Positions 13,637 through 47,044 of a stretch of DNA of 64,000 nucleotides are shown piece by piece (position 1 is the stretch's first letter; every line of letters starts with the position of its first letter). The notes beneath the pieces were generated by a model. That model saw only the letters and a program-made list of their open reading frames with translations. It searched no databases and had not been told where the DNA came from. The translations under genes were made by a program, and so were the position numbers. The DNA comes from Planctomyces sp. (GTDB lineage Bacteria > Planctomycetota > Planctomycetia > Planctomycetales > Planctomycetaceae), in NCBI GenBank assembly GCA_019636235.1, contig JAHBXW010000018.1, forward strand, positions 1 through 64,000, read 5' to 3'.

Positions 13637-15943
13637 TCACCCCTTCTGGAACGTCAATTTCGTCCCCTGCTGCAGCGGCGAGAAGTCCAGCGAGCCGTCA
13701 GACTTCAGGTTGATCTCGCTGAGCATCACGCCGCCGGAATCCGGCTGCATGACGAGATTGTTCCCCCGCACCACGTAGGCGCCGGAGACCGTCTGCGGCT
13801 GGCCGTCCTTCGAGTACGACCATTGGAACGTGCCGTCGGCGCCCAGCGTCAGTGAGAACTGGCCGCTGGCGTCCTGCGCAGTCCACGCGCCTTCCAGCTG
13901 GTCCATCGGCCAGGCCGGCGCTTTGACGCTGTCCGCCGTCTCCTGCGCAGCGGCCGGATTGGCGGCGGCCGCCGCGGCGGCGGGCGGCTCGTACATCTTG
14001 ATCAGGTCGGCCGTCAGCTGGTCCTTCGGCTGGAGTTGGGCCACGGCCTTGAGCAGCGCCAGCGCGTCCTCCTGATGCCCGGCCGTCATGTAGTGGTAGG
14101 CCAGCAGGAACCGCACATCCGCCGCCTGCGCATCGGCCTTCACCGCCGCTTCGAGCTTCCGGAGCTGTGCGGTGTACACGTCCGGCTTGTCGTACAGGCT
14201 GATGAGCGTCGTCCAGTCCATCCCCGGACCGGCGGCGAGCACCGCGTGGATCACAGCCGCCGACTCGCGAAAACGGCCCAGCGCGAACAGGCACAGGCTG
14301 CGGAACTCGTTGATCGCGGCGTCCCGCGGCGCGGCCTGCAGCGCCTGATCCGTCAGCGACAGCGCCTCGTCGAACTGCTCCTGGTGAAACGCCGCCCGCG
14401 CCTGATTGAACGTGGCCGTCAGCGGGTCCGTCGCGGCTGAAGCGTCGTCGCTCCCGGAATCGGCGGACGCGGAATCGTCCGGCGGCTGCATCGTGGAGGG
14501 ATCGCCGACGACCGGCTCGGCGTACGACACGGCCGTGCCGCCGTCGTAATAGGGGTTGTAGTACCCGCTCACGCCGAACAGCGTGTTGACGGCGCTGATG
14601 CCCCACATCGTCGCGCCGAACGCCATTGCCGCGGGATACGTGTCCCACAAGTAGTCCCAGCGGCCGTTCCCCCAGGTCGGCGCGTAGCCGTTGTACCAGC
14701 CGCCCCAGTTGCGGGACCAATGACCGGCCGGCCCCGAGTAGCCCGCCCAGCCAAACGCGCCGTTCGGGCCGATCGCACCCCCATGACCCCAGACGTTCCC
14801 GTTCGGCCCCCAGCCGATCGTGTGGCCCCAGGCCCCGTTCGGACCGACGCCGGTCGAATGTCCCCAGTGTCCGCCGTTCGGTCCCCAGGCGCCGGTGTGG
14901 CCCCAGTAGCCGTTCGGCCCCCAGAACCCCACGTGGTTGATCTCGCCCCCGTTCGGACCTTCCCATTGCTGGTGATGCCAGCCGCTGTCCCCCCAGTGAT
15001 CGTCAAAGCGGTTGGACAGATCGTTCGTGCGCTGGGGAATCGACCCCTTCTGCCCCGGCGTCCATCCCGATCCGCCCCCCGCGGCCCCGCCCCCGGGACG
15101 GGAATCGGCCCCGGGCAGTCGCGTTCCAGAACCCCCGGCTCCAGGACGGGCCGGCCCCAGCCCCGGCAGCGACGCCGTATTGCCCCCAGGTCCTCGGCCA
15201 TCCAGCCCGGGAAAATTCTCCGGCCGATGCCCGCCGATGCCTGGAGTCTGGCCCGGCAGATTCAACGAGGAACGGCCGCCGTCTCCGCCCAGGCCAAACC
15301 GTCCCGCTCCATCGCCTCCCAGACCGAAACGCCCGCCGCCATCGTCCCCGAGACCAAAGCGGCCGGCGTCGCCGCCCCCCGCCCCGAGTCCGCCGCCGGG
15401 CGTGAGATCCCCGCGCGTGATCCCGCCATCGGCACTCAATTGCGGGCGCGAGCCGATCTGCAGTCCGCCGGCTCCCTGGCCGGGCGTGTGCAGAATGTTC
15501 GGTCGCTGCGACCCGCCTCCCAGGCCGCCCCCTGGACCCAGCCCGCCGCCCCCCAATCCGCCCGGACCGAGGCGACCGCTCCCGCCCTGTCCGCCAAGTC
15601 CACCGCCACCCCGATTGCCGCCGCCCAGCCCACCGCCGCCGAGGTTTCCGCCACCCAGCCCACCGCCGCCACCGAATCCTCCGCCGCTGGGGCGCGTCAT
15701 CGCGGGAGAGGGACCCGGTCGAAACCCGCCGCCCGACAGACCTCCCCCTCCCATCCCGCCGCCGAAGCCGCCTCCGCCGCCAAATCCACCGCCGCCGAAG
15801 CCGCCCCCGCCATGGAACCCGCCGCCCCCCAGCCCGCCGCCGCCGAGGCCCCCGCCCCCAAACCCGCGCGCGAATGCCGGACCGCCCGACAGCGCGACCG
15901 TCACCAGACCCACCACTGCCGAATGCCACACGGGGCGTATCAT
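13637..15943 (-). CDS. Glycine-rich exported protein with WGPNG repeats and TPR-like domain
   Basis: A 768-residue exported protein. After a signal peptide (MIRPVWHSAVVGLVTVALSG, cleavage near AFA) come about 240 residues dominated by GGGG(L/F)GGG and G-D-G-G repeats. Next is a Trp/His-rich block with six GPNG units (FWGPNGYWGHTGAWGPNGGH and so on, about 328-400) and a segment NTLFGVSGYYNPYYDGG. A TPR-like helical domain follows (about 500-650, FDEALSLTDQALQAAPRD), then a beta-rich C-terminal domain (about 680-768, LEGAWTAQDASGQFSLTLGA). The layout suggests a surface or periplasmic scaffold, but no function is known to me. The ATG at 15943 starts the leader; it is a monocistronic minus-strand gene. 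Confidence 0.75.
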   Translation of the reverse strand: MIRPVWHSAVVGLVTVALSGGPAFARGFGGGGLGGGGLGGGGFHGGGGFGGGGFGGGGGFGGGMGGGGLSGGGFRPGPSPAMTRPSGGGFGGGGGLGGGNLGGGGLGGGNRGGGGLGGQGGSGRLGPGGLGGGGLGPGGGLGGGSQRPNILHTPGQGAGGLQIGSRPQLSADGGITRGDLTPGGGLGAGGGDAGRFGLGDDGGGRFGLGGDGAGRFGLGGDGGRSSLNLPGQTPGIGGHRPENFPGLDGRGPGGNTASLPGLGPARPGAGGSGTRLPGADSRPGGGAAGGGSGWTPGQKGSIPQRTNDLSNRFDDHWGDSGWHHQQWEGPNGGEINHVGFWGPNGYWGHTGAWGPNGGHWGHSTGVGPNGAWGHTIGWGPNGNVWGHGGAIGPNGAFGWAGYSGPAGHWSRNWGGWYNGYAPTWGNGRWDYLWDTYPAAMAFGATMWGISAVNTLFGVSGYYNPYYDGGTAVSYAEPVVGDPSTMQPPDDSASADSGSDDASAATDPLTATFNQARAAFHQEQFDEALSLTDQALQAAPRDAAINEFRSLCLFALGRFRESAAVIHAVLAAGPGMDWTTLISLYDKPDVYTAQLRKLEAAVKADAQAADVRFLLAYHYMTAGHQEDALALLKAVAQLQPKDQLTADLIKMYEPPAAAAAAANPAAAQETADSVKAPAWPMDQLEGAWTAQDASGQFSLTLGADGTFQWSYSKDGQPQTVSGAYVVRGNNLVMQPDSGGVMLSEINLKSDGSLDFSPLQQGTKLTFQKG

Positions 15944-16012
15944 GGAAGTTCCCCACCGAGACCTGAGAATGTTCAAAACCTCATCCGGCGCGCGGACCAC
16001 TGATGTCCGTCC

Positions 16013-36075: not shown

Positions 36076-37920
36076 TCAGTTCGACTGATCAACCGGGTCG
36101 AGCGGCAGCGGCGGCAGGATCGCCGATTTGGGCATGGTGACGAGCGGAGGCTTGGGCGCCATCTGCGATGCGGTCCTGGGTTTCTCCAGCCCTTCCGTGT
36201 TCCGACGAACGATCTTCAGCGGCGGCGGGGACGGCGGATCGGCCGCCAGTTGCGGCTGGATCGGCAGGTCCTCGGGCGTCGGAACGATCGGCGTCGGCGG
36301 GTCCGGTTCCAGGGCGGCCGTGTCCATCGGCGGTTTGATCGCCGGCAGGTCCGGCAGCACCGGGGCGCCAGGCTCTTCCGCGGGCATCGAGTCCGCGGGC
36401 TGTTCCGGCATTGGAGCGGGAGGATCAGCGGCGGCGACTTGAGGCGGCTCGGGCGCTGTCTCCGGCATCGGCGGCGGATCGGGCATCGACTCCGGCGGCG
36501 GATCGTCGGACATCGGCGACGGCGCCTCCGACATCGGCATCGGCGTTTCGGACGGGGTCTCCGTCGTGGGCGTCTCGGCCGTGCCCGGAGGAGTGGGGGC
36601 GACGCCGATCGGCTGGTCCGGATCGCGCGAGGCGACCACCGGCGGCTTCGGGTCGCGGGGCGTGTTCTGCGCGAGCAACGGCTTGGGGTCGACAGGCGTG
36701 ATCGTCCGCGGGCTCATCCGCTCGCGATACAGCACCACGGCGTGCAGCGCGTGGAACAGCGGACCCGGGTCGATCTCCTGGTTGCTGAACTGCACCAGGT
36801 CCGTCGCCACGCGGCCCACCGCCGCCTTGACCCACTGCTCCTTCAACTGCTGTTGCGGCAGCGCCATCATCAGCCATTCCAGCATGTGGCCGGACGACTT
36901 GAGCCGTTCGTTGGGATCCTTCGTGTGGCCCACGTCCTTGAAGAAGTGGGCCGAGAACGAGCCGTCCTGATTCTGCATCCGGCGGGCCAGCTCGATGTGC
37001 CGCTGAATCTTCTGATCGGCCTCGACCCACACGCCGGCCAGCCGGCCATGCTTCTGCAGGTAGGAGTTCCGCGCGTAGCTCAGGGCAAACAATCCGTGCG
37101 TCCCGCCGCAGGGGGACCGGGTGACCTCGTCATTCGTCTGGATCCGGACCAGATCCTCCATGGCCCAGCGCCGCCCCTGGGCGTTCACCCAGTTGGCATC
37201 CGGCTCGATGTAGTGCGTCAGGAACCACAGCGTCCAACTGATCTCCTCGTTGGAATTCACCATCATCTGCGCGTGCCGGACCATGTCGGCCATGCTGACC
37301 GATTCGCCGTTGGCGACGCGGATGCGGTGATCGAGCGGCAGGTTGGCCATCGTCATCAGCGCCAGGAACTGATTGACGTGCCCCTCGAAGTAATAGGGCT
37401 GGGAGAACGGGTGGCCGCGCCCGCCATAGCGCGTCTTCTCGAACCAGTGCTCGCCGCGGAACACCGGATCCTGCGAGATCCAGTCCACTGCGCTGACCAT
37501 GCCGCGGTTCGTCTTGAGTTCCAGATCGTGTCGCAGCGCGAGCAGACCGTGCATGATCTGCCACGGAGTGTGCTGCATCTGCGGGCCGATGTTCTCGGCG
37601 TTGAGGAACCGCCGCTTGGTGATGCGGATGGCCTCCTCGACGCGGCGCAGCACGGGATCTTCGGGATCGTCGGGGCTGTTCAGACCCGCGTAATTATTCG
37701 CCGGGGGCGCGTTGGGCACGTCCGGCGGCTTCTGGATCCTGGGCGCCTCTTCGGGCTGATCCTTCTGATCTTTCGCCTTCCGCCCCAGCCGGAACAGCGC
37801 GGCCGGCGTGAAGCCCTTGTCGGCGCCCGGCAGCAGCGTCGCGAAGGCCGTCACCAGCAGGAGGCTGAGCAGCACCGCCATGCGGCGTCCCGACTGCGGC
37901 GGCGGATTGAACCGACTCAT
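36076..37920 (-). CDS. Membrane-anchored toroid-like protein with Pro-rich tail
   Basis: A 614-residue protein I cannot name. A signal anchor (MAVLLSLLLVTAFATLLPGA, about 14-33) is followed by a helical alpha/alpha-toroid-like domain (about 65-400: ITKRRFLNAENIGPQMQHTP, WQIMHGLLALRH, RMQNQDGSFSAHFF, LEWLMMALPQQQL). Residues about 410-614 are very rich in Pro, Glu and Met (SETPMPMSEAPSPMSDDPPP) and probably disordered. It resembles the exported toroid protein at 24.7 kb in fold type only. AAGGAGGGG lies before ATG 37920. It is convergent with the MFS gene with a 20-nt gap. Confidence 0.72.
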   Translation of the reverse strand: MSRFNPPPQSGRRMAVLLSLLLVTAFATLLPGADKGFTPAALFRLGRKAKDQKDQPEEAPRIQKPPDVPNAPPANNYAGLNSPDDPEDPVLRRVEEAIRITKRRFLNAENIGPQMQHTPWQIMHGLLALRHDLELKTNRGMVSAVDWISQDPVFRGEHWFEKTRYGGRGHPFSQPYYFEGHVNQFLALMTMANLPLDHRIRVANGESVSMADMVRHAQMMVNSNEEISWTLWFLTHYIEPDANWVNAQGRRWAMEDLVRIQTNDEVTRSPCGGTHGLFALSYARNSYLQKHGRLAGVWVEADQKIQRHIELARRMQNQDGSFSAHFFKDVGHTKDPNERLKSSGHMLEWLMMALPQQQLKEQWVKAAVGRVATDLVQFSNQEIDPGPLFHALHAVVLYRERMSPRTITPVDPKPLLAQNTPRDPKPPVVASRDPDQPIGVAPTPPGTAETPTTETPSETPMPMSEAPSPMSDDPPPESMPDPPPMPETAPEPPQVAAADPPAPMPEQPADSMPAEEPGAPVLPDLPAIKPPMDTAALEPDPPTPIVPTPEDLPIQPQLAADPPSPPPLKIVRRNTEGLEKPRTASQMAPKPPLVTMPKSAILPPLPLDPVDQSN

Positions 37921-38192
37921 GGGCCTCACCCCTCCTTGAGCTTCCGGACGTCGCGACCGCGACGTCGGCGCCGGCGGCCTCCCACCGCCGTCCACTGGGT
38001 CATCAAATGCGCCGCGGGACCGTACTGGAAACGCCGGACGCCGGAAAGATGACTTTGGACCGCGGCGCATCAGGACGCCGCGCGCCGGACCAACCCGCAG
38101 AATTCGCCGAATTCCGCGCGATACCTCGCATCGCCCCCCCGGGTTCTATGTCTTGTGAGATGTCTGGTTCAGCACTCGGACTCAGGTGAGTT

Positions 38193-39590
38193 ATGACGAA
38201 GTGGGCGAGGATCGCGGCCTGCGCCGCGGCGATGGCGGCGGCGTACACAGGCGCACGCGCCGACGATGCGGAGCCGATCCCGGGCGCCGCGCGGGATTCG
38301 CAGGATGTGGTGCGCGGCCAGGACGCCGGACGTCCGGGCCCGGGACGCTTTCGCGGTCGCGACGATGGACCGGGGCCCAATCGTGAGGCCCAGCCGGAGT
38401 TCAGCCGGGATCAGGTCCGCCAGCTGTTCGAGCGGCTGCTGGCCGAACTCAGTCGCTCCTCGGAACCGCAAGGAGGCCAACCGCCGCAAGGCCGCGCTGA
38501 CGATCGACGCGCGCCGGAACGCGCCATCGGCAGGAGCGGTCGCGGCGGTCCCGGACCAGACCGGCAGGGGCCTCCTGAACGTCGCTTCGGCCCCGGCGCG
38601 GATCGCGGTCCCGAGCGTCCGCTCGCAACGCGGCCTCAGTCGGGAGAGTCTGACGCGGCGCGAGCGCCCTTTCCCTTCCGGCCCGCCATCATCCTCGTCC
38701 TGGATCGGAATGGCGATGGCCGCGTCAGCCGCGAAGAACTGGCTCGCGCCGTCGAGCGGTTTGAAACACTGGATCGCGACGGCGACGGACAACTCGACCT
38801 GCGCGAGCTGCTGAGCCGCGGCGACGGCCCCGACCGGGGCGGATTCGGTCCTGGCGCGGCGCGGTTCGGTGAAGGCCGCGGATTCGGAGGCGGGGGATTC
38901 GGCCGAGGGGAGTTTGGGCGAGGCGAATTTGGTCGAGGGGAGTTCGGACCGCGCGAACCGGGTCGGCCGCAACGGCCGGAATTCGACCGCGGCGATGATC
39001 GTCGCCCCGGCGAGGCCCGCGGACCGGATGGACCTGGACGGCAGGATGGCGATCGCCCCCGTCCAGAAGCGCAGGGTCGCCCGGGACCGGATGACCGCAG
39101 TGCCGAGGGACCGCGCGGCTTTGATGGCCGTCGGGGACCGTTCGCACGCGGTCCGGAAGGACGCGGTCCGGAAGGACGTGGACCGGAAGGGCGTGGACCC
39201 GAAGGGCGTGGACCCGAAGGACGTGGACCCGAAGGACGTGGACCCGAAGGACGTGGACCCGAAGGACGCGGTCCGGAAGGACGTGGTCCCGAAGGGCGTG
39301 GACCCGAAGGACGTGGACCCGAAGGACGCGGTCCGGAAGGACGTGGTCCCGAAGGACGTGGTCCGGAAGGACGTGGACCGCGCGGACCCCGGAACATTGA
39401 GCGCGGCGGCCGCGGAGCCGGACCGTTCTCTCAGCTCGATCCCAACGACGACGGCGTCATCACTCGCGATGAAGCCAATGACCGGCTCGCTGCTCGGTTC
39501 GACGCCATCGATTCCGACGGGGATGGCCGGATCACTCGTGAGGAACTCCGGCTCGCGTTCGAAAATCGCCTCGACGCCTCCGGCGAATGA
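38193..39590 (+). CDS. Exported EF-hand protein with a GPEGR tandem-repeat linker
   Basis: A 465-residue exported calcium-binding-type protein. After the signal peptide (ARIAACAAAMAAAYTGARAD) come two pairs of EF-hand loops: LDRNGDGRVSREE and LDRDGDGQLDLRE near 170-210, and LDPNDDGVITRDE and IDSDGDGRITREE near 415-455. All have the D-x-[DN]-x-[DN]G pattern needed to bind calcium. Between the pairs is a 200-residue Gly/Arg/Pro/Glu-rich linker containing 15 GPEGR units (39150-39374). The ATG at 38193 starts the leader. It is a single gene with a hairpin 45 nt after the stop. Periplasmic calcium binding is inferred from the motifs. Confidence 0.85.
   Translation: MTKWARIAACAAAMAAAYTGARADDAEPIPGAARDSQDVVRGQDAGRPGPGRFRGRDDGPGPNREAQPEFSRDQVRQLFERLLAELSRSSEPQGGQPPQGRADDRRAPERAIGRSGRGGPGPDRQGPPERRFGPGADRGPERPLATRPQSGESDAARAPFPFRPAIILVLDRNGDGRVSREELARAVERFETLDRDGDGQLDLRELLSRGDGPDRGGFGPGAARFGEGRGFGGGGFGRGEFGRGEFGRGEFGPREPGRPQRPEFDRGDDRRPGEARGPDGPGRQDGDRPRPEAQGRPGPDDRSAEGPRGFDGRRGPFARGPEGRGPEGRGPEGRGPEGRGPEGRGPEGRGPEGRGPEGRGPEGRGPEGRGPEGRGPEGRGPEGRGPEGRGPEGRGPRGPRNIERGGRGAGPFSQLDPNDDGVITRDEANDRLAARFDAIDSDGDGRITREELRLAFENRLDASGE
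39150..39374 (+). repeat. 15 tandem copies of a 15-bp unit (GPEGR)
   Basis: The unit, in the form GGACCCGAAGGACGT with third-position variation (GGTCCG/GGACCC, GGGCGT/GGACGC), repeats in phase from 39150 and encodes GPEGR each time. Variants cluster in blocks (three GGxCCG units, then GGACCC units, then mixed), which suggests slippage or unequal exchange. It ends at GGACCGCGCGGACCC. Confidence 0.9.
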
Positions 39591-39634
39591 CAGGCGGCGC
39601 GCGCCACCCAGGAGGATGACTCCCTCTGGCGGCC

Positions 39635-39660
39635 CGACCCCGCGCACCCGCGCGGGGTCG
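39635..39660 (+). terminator. Hairpin after the EF-hand gene
   Basis: An 11-bp GC-rich stem (CGACCCCGCGC, loop ACCC, GCGCGGGGTCG) 45 nt after the TGA. No T-run follows. Confidence 0.5.
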
Positions 39661-39708
39661 TGTCGTTCAGGGACCTGCCGCGGCCGCCCGGCTGCTCCGT
39701 GCGTGCGA

Positions 39709-39714
39709 TATACT
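39709..39714 (+). promoter_or_regulatory. Candidate -10 element (TATACT) for the MazG-like gene
   Basis: TATACT lies 36 nt before ATG 39751 and downstream of the terminator-like hairpin. No strong -35. Confidence 0.4.
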
Positions 39715-39750
39715 CCCCCCATTCCGCTTCGTGAATCCGGGAGTCGACGC

Positions 39751-40062
39751 ATGGCCGAGTCGTTGTCGTTGTCTGAGCTGCAGTCGCTGATTGATCGCAT
39801 GTATTCCCGCAAGGACGAAGCGCGCGGCGTCGACGGGACATTCATGTGGCTGATGGAGGAAGTCGGCGAACTGGCGGCCGCTCTCCGCAGCGGCACGCAG
39901 CAGGAGCAGGCCCGGGAGTTCGCGGACGTGCTCGCCTGGCTGGCGACGATTGCGAACGTCGCCGGCATCGACCTCAACGCGGCCGTCCTGGAGAAATATG
40001 GGCGCGGCTGCCCCGGCTGCGGGCAGATGGTCTGCGCCTGCGGCGATGCCGAAAAGCCATAG
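39751..40062 (+). CDS. MazG-like nucleotide pyrophosphohydrolase with Cys-rich tail
   Basis: A 103-residue all-helical protein of the MazG/NTP-PPase class, which hydrolyses NTPs or dNTPs to monophosphates and PPi. FMWLMEEVGELAAALRSG carries the E-x2-E pair and REFADVLAWLATIANVAGID the E-x3-D pair, together forming the magnesium site. The C-terminus (KYGRGCPGCGQMVCACGDAE) adds four cysteines in CPxC and CxC pairs, a possible zinc knuckle not usual for the family. The frame is open far upstream over the EF-hand gene, but ATG 39751, preceded by GGGAG, gives the family length. Confidence 0.85.
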   Translation: MAESLSLSELQSLIDRMYSRKDEARGVDGTFMWLMEEVGELAAALRSGTQQEQAREFADVLAWLATIANVAGIDLNAAVLEKYGRGCPGCGQMVCACGDAEKP

Positions 40063-40131: not shown

Positions 40132-40635
40132 TCAGTGCCCCGAATCGAGTTCCGCCAGGAAACCGCGGAACTGCGACCAGTGCGCGTCCTCATCGGAAAG
40201 CAGCTGCGTGCACAGGTCGGCCGTCACCGGATCATCGTCCGACGTCGCGCGAATGATGTCGCGGTAATGGGCGATGGCCCCCTCCTCCGCGGCCAGCACG
40301 CCCTCCACCACCGACCGCACATCGGTCGTGGACTGCGGCGGACGCAACGACTCCTGATCGAACTGCAGCTCCAGGGACCCCGGCACACGCCCGCCCAGCT
40401 GCTTGATCCGTTCCGCCAGCCGCCGCGCGTGCCCCAGTTCCTCGGTGACGTCGGCCGCCAGCGACCGCTTCACTTCCTCGGCGCGGATGCCGTCCAGGTG
40501 AACGCTGTTCGCGAGATAGTTGGCGACTGTCTCGATCTCCATCCGGTACGCCTTCTGGAGGAGGGCGATCGTTTCACCGGCGTTGGGAAGCGGTTCGCTG
40601 AGGCTGCGGTGAGCTGTGGACTTCTTCTCGGCCAT
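40132..40635 (-). CDS. Ferritin-like / bacterioferritin-type protein
   Basis: A 167-residue four-helix-bundle protein. Iron-site residues are visible in MEIETVANYL (helix 1), DVTEELGHARRLAERI with the E-x2-H pattern (helix 2), AAEEGAIAHYRDII (helix 3) and LLSDEDAHWSQFRGFL (helix 4). It may oxidise and store iron or protect against peroxide. The N-terminal 20 residues are polar and disordered. It opens the stress-type gene group that continues to about 48 kb, but points the other way from it. I could not decide between bacterioferritin and Dps-like because no haem ligand is clear. Confidence 0.8.
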   Translation of the reverse strand: MAEKKSTAHRSLSEPLPNAGETIALLQKAYRMEIETVANYLANSVHLDGIRAEEVKRSLAADVTEELGHARRLAERIKQLGGRVPGSLELQFDQESLRPPQSTTDVRSVVEGVLAAEEGAIAHYRDIIRATSDDDPVTADLCTQLLSDEDAHWSQFRGFLAELDSGH

Positions 40636-44105: not shown

Positions 44106-44537
44106 ATGCTGGCGATGGTCACCCACCAGGACGAGGCCCACAGCGACCTCGAATACCTGCTCCTCGACGATCTTTTTGAGCTGCTCGAGGAGCCGGCCGA
44201 CGCCGAGAACCGCCGCGCCATATTGGCGCTGCTCGAATTCCTGCTGACGACAGGAAGAGAGGCATTCTCGGCGATGGATGAGTCCGACGTTTCCTCGGAA
44301 CTGCTGTCCAGTTCGCAGTGGCGACGGCAGATCATCGGCCTCCACGCGGACCGGGATCGACTGTACGCGCAACTCGACTCGCTGAACGAACAGTTGCAGA
44401 ACTGCCGAAACCCGCGCGAGAGCGTGAATGCCGCGCGGGATGCGGTCCTGGTGTGGATCAACCGTTTGCAGCGGCACCGCCGCCAGCGGCTGCGGGTTCG
44501 CAGGGAATCCGCTCCGCGGCTCCGCAGCCACGTATGA
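44106..44537 (+). CDS. Hypothetical helical protein, 143 aa
   Basis: A 143-residue soluble, helical protein I do not recognise. The N-terminal half is acidic (LEYLLLDDLFELLEEPADAE), the middle shows a coiled-coil-like stretch (HADRDRLYAQLDSLNEQLQN) and the C-terminus is strongly basic (RLQRHRRQRLRVRRESAPRL). The basic end could bind nucleic acid, though this is not shown. AGGAA precedes the ATG. It lies between two exported-protein genes on the same strand. Confidence 0.6.
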   Translation: MLAMVTHQDEAHSDLEYLLLDDLFELLEEPADAENRRAILALLEFLLTTGREAFSAMDESDVSSELLSSSQWRRQIIGLHADRDRLYAQLDSLNEQLQNCRNPRESVNAARDAVLVWINRLQRHRRQRLRVRRESAPRLRSHV

Positions 44538-44689
44538 ATCGACGAGCGGACGGTCGACAGCAGTCAGTCCGCGAAACGAAGCAGCAGTCCACCGGATGCG
44601 ATCGCATTCGGCCATCAACAATCCGTCGAACGCGACCAGTGGGCGGCTCGCGTGCGGCGTTCTTCAAAGACAGGAATGGAGTGAGAGCG

Positions 44690-47044
44690 ATGATTCCCCA
44701 AAGCACACGGCGCCCGTCGCGGCGCTGGTTTCAATCAGCGATCGTCGGCGGGTGCGCCGCACTCGCGCTGTCCACCGCGCAGGCCCAGACGACCGGGAAT
44801 GCCCCGCCGGCCGGCAACGTTCCCGTGAACCCCAACGCGACCGGTGTGGGCGGAACCTCCGGTGCTGCGGGCGCCGCGCAGACTCCGAATGCGACGGGCA
44901 CGGGGGCAGCCGGCGCGGCGGGCCAGGCAGCGCCCAATGCGCCGACCACCATCCAAACCCCGCAGACCGCGAATCCCGGAACGGGCGCCACGCAAGTGCC
45001 GCCGAACGCGACACCCCCGGTCCCTGGCCAGCCCCGGCCGAACGCCGCGCGGAATCCCAACCTGCAGGGGCGTCCGAACGCCGCTCAGACCCCGGCCGCT
45101 CAGACCCCGGCGGCCGGCGAGGAGGCAGCGGCGTTCCTGTCCGGACGCATCTCGAACCTCGACAGCCGGTCGCTCACGCTGATGAACGGCGGCCGCTCGA
45201 CGCTGTTCAACTACACGCCCCGCACGCTCATTGAAATCGAAGGCCGCCGCGGGTCGTTCCGCGACCTCCGCTCGCTGCCGGCGACAACGGACGTTCAGAT
45301 CTATCGCGATCCCACGAACCCCACGCGGATTCAGCGGATCGTCGTCGGCGGCAACGCCGATGCCCAGGTCGAAGGCGCCGCGGACGCCGAGGCTACGGCC
45401 GACATTGGCGCGTCCGTCGGCGCCTCCGCCGACCAGCCTCAGTCCGCCACGCCGCGCCGCAACAGCACGGGCGTCAACAACCGGACGAACGCGAACCCGC
45501 GTCCCAACGCGCAACGCGGGCAGCGGCCGGGCGCGGAGAACATCGATCCCAACACGCCCATCGAAGCGCCCGGGTTCGATATCCTTCCCGATTCGCAGCG
45601 ACCCCCGCGCGCCAGCGACAGCGCTCCCGCAGCGCCCCGGTCGCAGGGCGTGACGCGCGAACAGCGTCGCGGCAGCGCTCCCGCGGCTCCCTTCGACAAC
45701 GACGAAGGCGTGAACCAGAGCACCGCGCCCGGGCGCCCCGATCCCGAGGATCCCCGGACGCGCCCGCTTGCGCCCGGAACCCGGGCGAATGAACCCGTCC
45801 GCGCTCCCGGAGCGCGGCCCAATGAGCCCATCCGCGCTCCCGGCGCCCGGTCCAACGAGCCGATCCGCGCTCCCGGAGCGCGGCCCAATGAGCCCATCCG
45901 CGCTCCCGGCGCAGACCTCAATGAACCGGTGCGTGCGCCGGGCGCAGATCCCAATGAACCGATTCGCGCGCCCGGCGGGCGTGACGTGATCCGCCGCAGC
46001 GACGGCACGATTTCCGGCCGCACTGCCGGCAATTCCCGAGCCGCCGCCGCGGCGCAGGTTCCGGCCGTTGACCTCGGCGTGTCGCTGCAGGCCGCGCGAG
46101 GCGGCGTCGGCGTCACGGCCGTCGTGCCGTCCGGCATTGCCGGGAATGGCGGTTTCGTCGTGGGCGACACCATCCGCTCGATCGACGGCGTCGCCGTTCG
46201 CAACGACAACGACATCTATCGCGCCCTGCATGCCCATCAGGCGGGCGATCGCGTGACCGTGCAGGTTCTCCGTGAAGGCACGCCGCGCGACTTGACGCTC
46301 ACACTGCCGTCGACCTTCCAGCCCGCCATGCTGGACGAGGCGGTGGCCGAGACTGCCGTAGCGGGCGCCGCCGGTCTGGCCGGAACTCCGGCAGCGGATC
46401 CTTCGACCCGGATTGAAACCCAGGCCGAGACCGGCATCTCCGGAACACAGTTGGGGACGGACCGCCTGGACCCGAATGGGCTGCCGACGACGACCGGACA
46501 GGGCGCCGCCAGCCAGGGTCTGTCGACCGAAGGCCTGACGCTGGAGGGCGCGACGGATGAGACGCCGGCGGCCCGTCCCACGCGACGCGTCGAGCCTTCT
46601 CTGTCGAGCGTCGATGTCCGCAAAGTGTCGCCGATTGATCTCGGCTGGCAGCTTCGCGACACGACCGTAGGAGTGGCCGTGGTGAGCATCGCGGACGACG
46701 GGGCGCTTGGGCAGGGCGACCTCCGCGGCGGCGACATCATCGAGAGCGTCAATGGCCGCATCGTGACGACGCCCGGCGCGCTGTATTACGAGCTGCATCA
46801 GGTCGGCGCTGGCGAGGGGGTGAACCTCGGAATCCTTCGCGAGGGCGAACGTCAGACGGCCCGCGTCACGCTGCCGGCGACGCATCGTCCCGAGCTGCTG
46901 GACAACGCGGCGGTCAGCGCGGCCGGGGCGACAACCGGCCAGGAGGCCCTGACTCCCGCGGATGTGCGGTCCCTGATGCAGGAAGTTCGCGAGCTGCGCG
47001 CGGAAATCGAGGCGCTCAAGGCGGCCCGCGGCGCGACGCCCTGA
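44690..47044 (+). CDS. Exported protein with two PDZ domains and Asn/Pro-rich repeats
   Basis: A 784-residue exported protein. After a signal peptide (RRWFQSAIVGGCAALALSTA) comes a low-complexity Ala/Pro/Asn region. A short beta domain follows (about 145-225, FLSGRISNLDSRSLTLMNGG), then a linker with 11-residue repeats (RAPGARPNEPI, about 360-430). The first PDZ lies at about 459-540 (GGFVVGDTIRSIDGVAVRND) and the second at about 648-739 (DLRGGDIIESVNGRIVTTPG). A terminal helix contains SLMQEVRELRAEIEALKAA. No protease domain is present, so it is more likely a scaffold binding C-termini in the periplasm. The start is the ATG at 44690 after GAGTGAGAGCG. Confidence 0.82.
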   Translation: MIPQSTRRPSRRWFQSAIVGGCAALALSTAQAQTTGNAPPAGNVPVNPNATGVGGTSGAAGAAQTPNATGTGAAGAAGQAAPNAPTTIQTPQTANPGTGATQVPPNATPPVPGQPRPNAARNPNLQGRPNAAQTPAAQTPAAGEEAAAFLSGRISNLDSRSLTLMNGGRSTLFNYTPRTLIEIEGRRGSFRDLRSLPATTDVQIYRDPTNPTRIQRIVVGGNADAQVEGAADAEATADIGASVGASADQPQSATPRRNSTGVNNRTNANPRPNAQRGQRPGAENIDPNTPIEAPGFDILPDSQRPPRASDSAPAAPRSQGVTREQRRGSAPAAPFDNDEGVNQSTAPGRPDPEDPRTRPLAPGTRANEPVRAPGARPNEPIRAPGARSNEPIRAPGARPNEPIRAPGADLNEPVRAPGADPNEPIRAPGGRDVIRRSDGTISGRTAGNSRAAAAAQVPAVDLGVSLQAARGGVGVTAVVPSGIAGNGGFVVGDTIRSIDGVAVRNDNDIYRALHAHQAGDRVTVQVLREGTPRDLTLTLPSTFQPAMLDEAVAETAVAGAAGLAGTPAADPSTRIETQAETGISGTQLGTDRLDPNGLPTTTGQGAASQGLSTEGLTLEGATDETPAARPTRRVEPSLSSVDVRKVSPIDLGWQLRDTTVGVAVVSIADDGALGQGDLRGGDIIESVNGRIVTTPGALYYELHQVGAGEGVNLGILREGERQTARVTLPATHRPELLDNAAVSAAGATTGQEALTPADVRSLMQEVRELRAEIEALKAARGATP
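45770..45978 (+). repeat. Tandem 33-bp repeats encoding RAPGAxxNEPI
   Basis: About six to seven copies of an 11-residue unit (APGARPNEPIR, APGARSNEPIR, APGADLNEPVR, APGADPNEPIR) in the linker of the PDZ protein. The segment CCCGGAGCGCGGCCCAATGA occurs identically in two of them, pointing to recent duplication. Confidence 0.85.

Follow-up and report, generated by a model that had tools for sequence, protein, structure and literature searches.

The window, by which we mean the whole 64-kb stretch of DNA that was analysed, carries at 38193-39590 on the plus strand a gene for a 465-residue EF-hand protein, identified from the ORF list, from Pfam and from the G+C content by codon position (0.84/0.62/0.69 outside the GPEGR array discussed below). 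On one side, at 36076-38070 on the minus strand, lies a divergent neighbour of 664 residues with no assigned function, for which neither Pfam nor NCBIfam returned a match at 0.01. On the other side a MazG-like gene with its own ATG at 39751 occupies 39751-40062 (plus strand), and adjoining it at 40132-40635 (minus strand) is a gene for a Ferritin-like/Dps-like protein, which scores above the Pfam Ferritin cut-off and below the NCBIfam cut-offs. Repeats are found elsewhere in the window as well. A 33-bp tandem array of the PGARPNEPIRA type at 45773-45977 makes a second repeat linker, situated in a long plus-strand frame (44282-47044) with repeats of PDZ-like appearance; several short arrays at 14783-15867 fall in a stretch, Gly-rich there, of a 791-residue minus-strand frame (13637-16012) with an export-like start.

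From its N-terminus onwards, the EF-hand protein would consist of a signal peptide, a first EF-hand pair (pair A), a 205-residue disordered linker rich in Gly, Pro, Glu, Arg and Asp, and a second EF-hand pair (pair B). Residues 1-23 (38193-38261, plus strand) have a basic N-terminus, an Ala-rich core and the sequence ARA-DD, features by which we take them to be the likely signal peptide; the AlphaFold2 model places a helix at residues 2-19, and the ortholog in a congeneric genome begins alike. The protein is probably exported. Three EF-hand families of Pfam match above their gathering cut-offs, PF13202 at 69.3 bits (25.9), PF00036 at 63.3 bits (25.4) and PF13499 at 51.9 bits (30). Four loops, two on each side of the linker, have the canonical 12-residue form (D1, D/N3, D5, G6, E12): DRNGDGRVSREE and DRDGDGQLDLRE in pair A, at residues 167-206 (38691-38810, plus strand), and DPNDDGVITRDE and DSDGDGRITREE in pair B, at residues 412-452 (39426-39548, plus strand). 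The protein probably binds calcium through them. The AlphaFold2 model, built on an alignment of 11 sequences, has a mean pLDDT of 53.7 and a pTM of 0.26; the block means of pLDDT are 62-80 over pair A, 89-96 over residues 411-460, which cover pair B, and 33-48 across the linker. With 88% of its residues being G, P, E, R or D, the linker is predicted to be disordered, and the earlier note's description of a charged flexible linker joining two EF-hand pairs stands. In a Foldseek search of the PDB that allowed E up to 10, 82 matches were returned, none of them at 0.001 or below; the best 50 of these 82 were calmodulin and other EF-hand entries, judged by their titles. A sequence search of the PDB gave three weak matches, to an EF-hand protein, a lanmodulin and a calmodulin-like kinase.

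Within the linker, at 39150-39374 on the plus strand, TRF, the ORF translation and the parsing of units identify exactly 15 uninterrupted GPEGR units of 15 bp each, which encode residues 320-394. The count and the coordinates reproduce those of the earlier note, and tandem units that preserve the frame in this way constitute a coding minisatellite. Its TRF scores (329 at period 15 and 384 at period 60) are the highest among the 23 rows for the window. The array is flanked by the units GPFAR and GPRGP; a degenerate 15-bp mini-array of the GEFGR type, detected by TRF at 38882-38957 (plus strand) in the same linker, had been absent from the earlier note. The 15 units are of eight distinct kinds in the order ABCDEEEFBGEFBHB, and they vary only at positions 3, 6, 12 and 15 of the unit, all of them silent third-codon positions, just as had been claimed. 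Since 13 of the 45 single-base changes possible in a GPEGR unit are silent, hand arithmetic puts the chance that four changes are all silent at about 0.7%, a figure biased by the definition of an exact run: such a run stops at the first amino-acid change, and silent-only variation is thus partly built in.

The earlier note also held that the variants are arranged in blocks, which is borne out in part. The longest exact repeat inside the array is 59 bp long, with copies at 39237-39295 and 39297-39355 (plus strand, from the unit parsing). When the unit order or the columns were shuffled, the p values were 0.057 and 0.035 for the longest repeated unit run, 0.07 and 0.06 for the similarity of neighbouring units, and 0.19 and 0.17 for the similarity at a lag of four units; they are borderline or not significant, and the number of distinct units gave a p of 0.50. 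The arrangement in blocks departs only weakly from randomness.

The relatives of the protein show what has been kept around the linker. A search with the whole protein had matches in 45 of 59 genomes, its own included, many of them due to low complexity or to the EF-hands alone; it found no relative in the contigs of its own genome and missed the ortholog in G001. Of the 170 genomes listed for the family, G001 is the one other member of the genus. Its homolog was found by searching with pair B alone. The gene in G001 is divergent to a homolog (L134:9746-11041) of the 664-residue neighbour, with 57% identity over 433 residues, and for this reason it is taken as the syntenic ortholog. It encodes 469 residues, in which a relaxed pattern recognises seven EF-loop motifs and the strict one six, as against four here. 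Its linker is 125 residues long, has 30-33-bp repeats of a different kind and lacks the GPEGR array, so that the unit count is 15 in one of the two congeneric orthologs and 0 in the other. With the folded ends and the neighbour kept and other repeats in the linker, repeat content therefore differs within one genus. This synteny was seen for the congener only, as no homolog of the 664-residue neighbour appeared in the sequence stretches examined around the other relatives. The MazG-like gene has matches in 52 other genomes, and a scan of 29 of these loci showed no ORF with EF-hand motifs within about 1.5 kb of any of them.

The order of pair A, linker and pair B was parsed by pattern in the GPEGR protein and in 16 chosen loci, and was present in 12 of the latter, namely 11 from the same family and L103 from a planctomycete MAG; the pattern did not detect it, and may have missed it, in L067, L074, L006 and L079. 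The linker measures 21-75 residues in the 11 same-family relatives and 101 in L103, and in one of the relatives (G012) the equivalent linker has repeats of the RGEGDRP type. Most relatives have more EF-hand loops, which suggests that the GPEGR protein may have lost some. In both congeneric genomes a large protein (L003 and L127) also has an EF-hand pair close to its C-terminus; parts of its sequence look thioredoxin-like and copper-monooxygenase-like.

We read the locus as a gene for an exported EF-hand protein with a coding minisatellite of GPEGR units in its disordered linker, grown by in-frame duplication and serving as a flexible tether, and would give this reading a probability of roughly 0.8. 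The array, its silent variation, the architecture, the predicted disorder and the presence and absence between congeners are observed. Its growth would have involved duplication of both 15-bp units and 60-bp blocks, through slippage or unequal recombination, and the amino-acid sequence of the unit would be retained as the array changes. Such changes would be tolerated because the linker gains or loses entire pentapeptides at each event and the reading frame is always preserved. The linker may then act as a tether that sets the reach between two putative calcium-binding modules.

The most serious competitor, which we nevertheless consider unlikely, is that the array is under selection for a function of its own and is not a neutral tether; GPEGR would then be a recurrent spacer or ligand in exported planctomycete proteins, one that could, for example, bind a surface polymer. 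A GTDB-wide scan for DNA encoding (GPEGR)3 gave 22 records, of which 15 (14 isolates) are from Planctomycetota and seven are not; one of the carrier contigs, CAIUHT010000879.1 from an uncultured Planctomycetaceae, agrees in contig number and position with G187, a genome of the same family as ours, and it is on this agreement that we assign the window to the planctomycetes. The repeat recurs in proteins that are unrelated to each other. Among EF-hand carriers, L103 scores above the Pfam cut-off, L096 and L107 score below it, and L099 is assigned by motif only; CotH carriers are L094 by Pfam and L111 by resemblance; L095 is a BatA/VWA protein; and for L084, L098, L102 and L105 no Pfam family was convincing. 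The frame was judged doubtful in three of the 15 Planctomycetota records (L101, L106 and L113). By genome, (GPEGR)3 occurs in three of 170 of the family and in five of 392 of the phylum, our own being included in both counts, compared with 0 and 1 of 392 for two control repeats of the same composition. This difference is small and only suggestive, because two of the five (G270 and G358, which by the array data are the genomes of L101 and L113) have the doubtful frames and leave three of 392. Against a selected element there is also the congeneric ortholog without the array, as well as the other repeats that occupy the same place in relatives. On the same side are the arrays of Planctomycetes bacterium TBK1r (L105:4184-5323): they have 19 exact GPEGR units in three runs, the greatest unit total among the arrays compared for codons, together with GPDGR and GPDAR variants.

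The codons of the array differ from those in the rest of its gene. The Gly codon GGC is used in 0 of 30 cases, compared with 31 of 69 in the rest of the ORF, and the Arg codon CGT in 12 of 15, compared with 8 of 68. A special mRNA structure over the array was considered and rejected: the minimum free energy (MFE) is -85.5, and shuffling the codons of the array gives -86.3 ± 2.8. Synonymous sequences drawn from the codon usage of the ORF fold more strongly (-143.8 ± 10.7), but under a fairer null, in which one random unit is repeated, the z value of the array is only +1.32. The same comparison was extended to the other arrays, with L107 omitted as the same gene as L093. A positive z, meaning less mRNA folding than predicted by the codon usage of the array's own ORF, was obtained for 16 of 16 Planctomycetota arrays and for three of seven others; the 23 arrays pooled have a mean z of +0.74 (Wilcoxon p 8.8e-5) and a chosen 13 of the 16, without the doubtful frames, a mean of +0.97 (p 2.4e-4), in a post hoc comparison of few units per array with phylogenetic dependence among them. 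The three arrays left out of the 13 likewise have z above zero, and two of those retained are close to it (L084 at +0.13 and L102 at +0.02). In 13 of 16 cases, all but the three doubtful frames, CGT is commoner inside the array than elsewhere in its ORF; GGC is rarer there in 14 of 16, with L105 and L113 as exceptions. A tentative and rather speculative extension would be that exported proteins of planctomycetes (among them EF-hand, CotH and VWA proteins) have convergently acquired GPEGR as a recurring spacer module, built in each lineage by duplication and surviving only with codons (CGT, GGA and GGT, not GGC or CGC) that keep the mRNA and the single-stranded DNA weakly structured.

Somewhat less probable than a selected element is that the count of 15 units in this record is a product of the assembly, by collapse or expansion. 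The genome is in 45 contigs, two exact copies of 59 bp are present in the array, and contigs of three other planctomycete MAGs start or end in or beside such arrays. Two of these contigs (L096 and L099) start inside GPEGR arrays. The third MAG, isolate RH-20APR16-plancto3, has one gene assembled twice, at L107:1-597 and L093:1-443: L107 has pair A, nine units and then the following sequence, apparently at a contig end, and L093 starts inside the array and has at least 14 units with the same following sequence. The two counts may reflect length polymorphism within the population that was sampled, or else an artefact of assembly. For the record studied here, what speaks against an artefact is that most of the array is marked by a defined succession of eight different unit types, and that the array is internal to a 103-kb contig. 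The earlier note had thought that the array probably expands and contracts. Its absence from the syntenic ortholog in G001 supports this indirectly, as do the nine versus at least 14 units of RH-20APR16-plancto3; the argument from blocks is weak.

The array has one further consequence, already noticed in the earlier note and confirmed here, for the calling of genes. A frame stays open throughout the array because the 15-bp unit repeats the same five codons in each frame, for which one stop-free unit suffices. None of the six frames has a stop within the array, and this makes false long ORFs possible, such as a 253-residue frame of GPRPS repeats at 38636-39397 (minus strand) and a 397-residue frame at 38869-40062 (plus strand), in which another frame of the array is fused to the real MazG-like gene, as seen from Pfam and from comparison with other genomes. 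The MazG open frame is 415 residues long here, compared with 102-209 in 51 of the 52 other matching genomes; in the remaining genome it is 348. That the true product comes from another frame or strand, for example the GPRPS frame, is nonetheless extremely improbable, for all that six of six frames are open, since the EF-hand families match the plus frame, that frame is maintained in homologs with signal-like starts, and the 253-residue minus-strand frame gave nothing in Pfam at 0.01.

Overall, the interpretation given in the earlier note is largely right, and we see the array as a disordered, fast-evolving linker of repeats with nothing out of the ordinary about it, one more example of a kind already known. 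A possible novelty is that one pentapeptide recurs, with low-structure codons, in exported planctomycete proteins of unrelated families. The locus offers a case in which the linker between two predicted calcium-binding modules differs in repeat content between two congeneric species with the folded ends constant. Arrays of this sort can also break assemblies and, on either strand, create long ORFs that are false. Should the phylum-wide recurrence of GPEGR and its codon bias hold, they would provide a test of whether protein function or the tolerance of DNA and mRNA shapes repeat linkers.

Lanmodulin (NCBIfam NF053806) is, like this protein with its putative export, an exported EF-hand protein. 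A Pro at position 2 of the loop is the hallmark of lanmodulins; it is present in one of the four loops here and absent from the other three. Identity with lanmodulin was rejected at 42.9 bits against the NCBIfam equivalog cut-off of 135, and so was that with the XopAW family of EF-hand effectors, at 41.3 bits against a cut-off of 120. Nor is this a collagen-like protein, as the array has a period of five residues and not the G-X-Y period of three. Compared by description only, calsymin of Rhizobium etli, a secreted bacterial protein described with three EF-hand domains (PMC10574481), shares the presence of several EF-hand domains and would share secretion, whereas the domains here form two pairs. 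Low-complexity regions of prokaryotes are described as Gly/Pro-rich, with DNA slippage proposed as their origin and GGC as the prevalent Gly codon in bacteria (PMC6821194); our array is likewise Gly/Pro-rich but lacks that codon altogether. In the parts of the literature consulted on GPEGR, planctomycete EF-hand proteins, calsymin and repeat linkers, no account of GPEGR arrays was found. The 11 parsed same-family relatives and the congener have shorter linkers and no GPEGR arrays, and among the exported multi-EF-hand proteins of Planctomycetota that were compared, most have retained more than the four EF-hand loops seen here. What the GPEGR protein shares with the latter (in G001, G026, G002, G012, G005 and others) is the entire plan, a signal-like start followed by pair A, a linker rich in G, P, E, R and D, and pair B.
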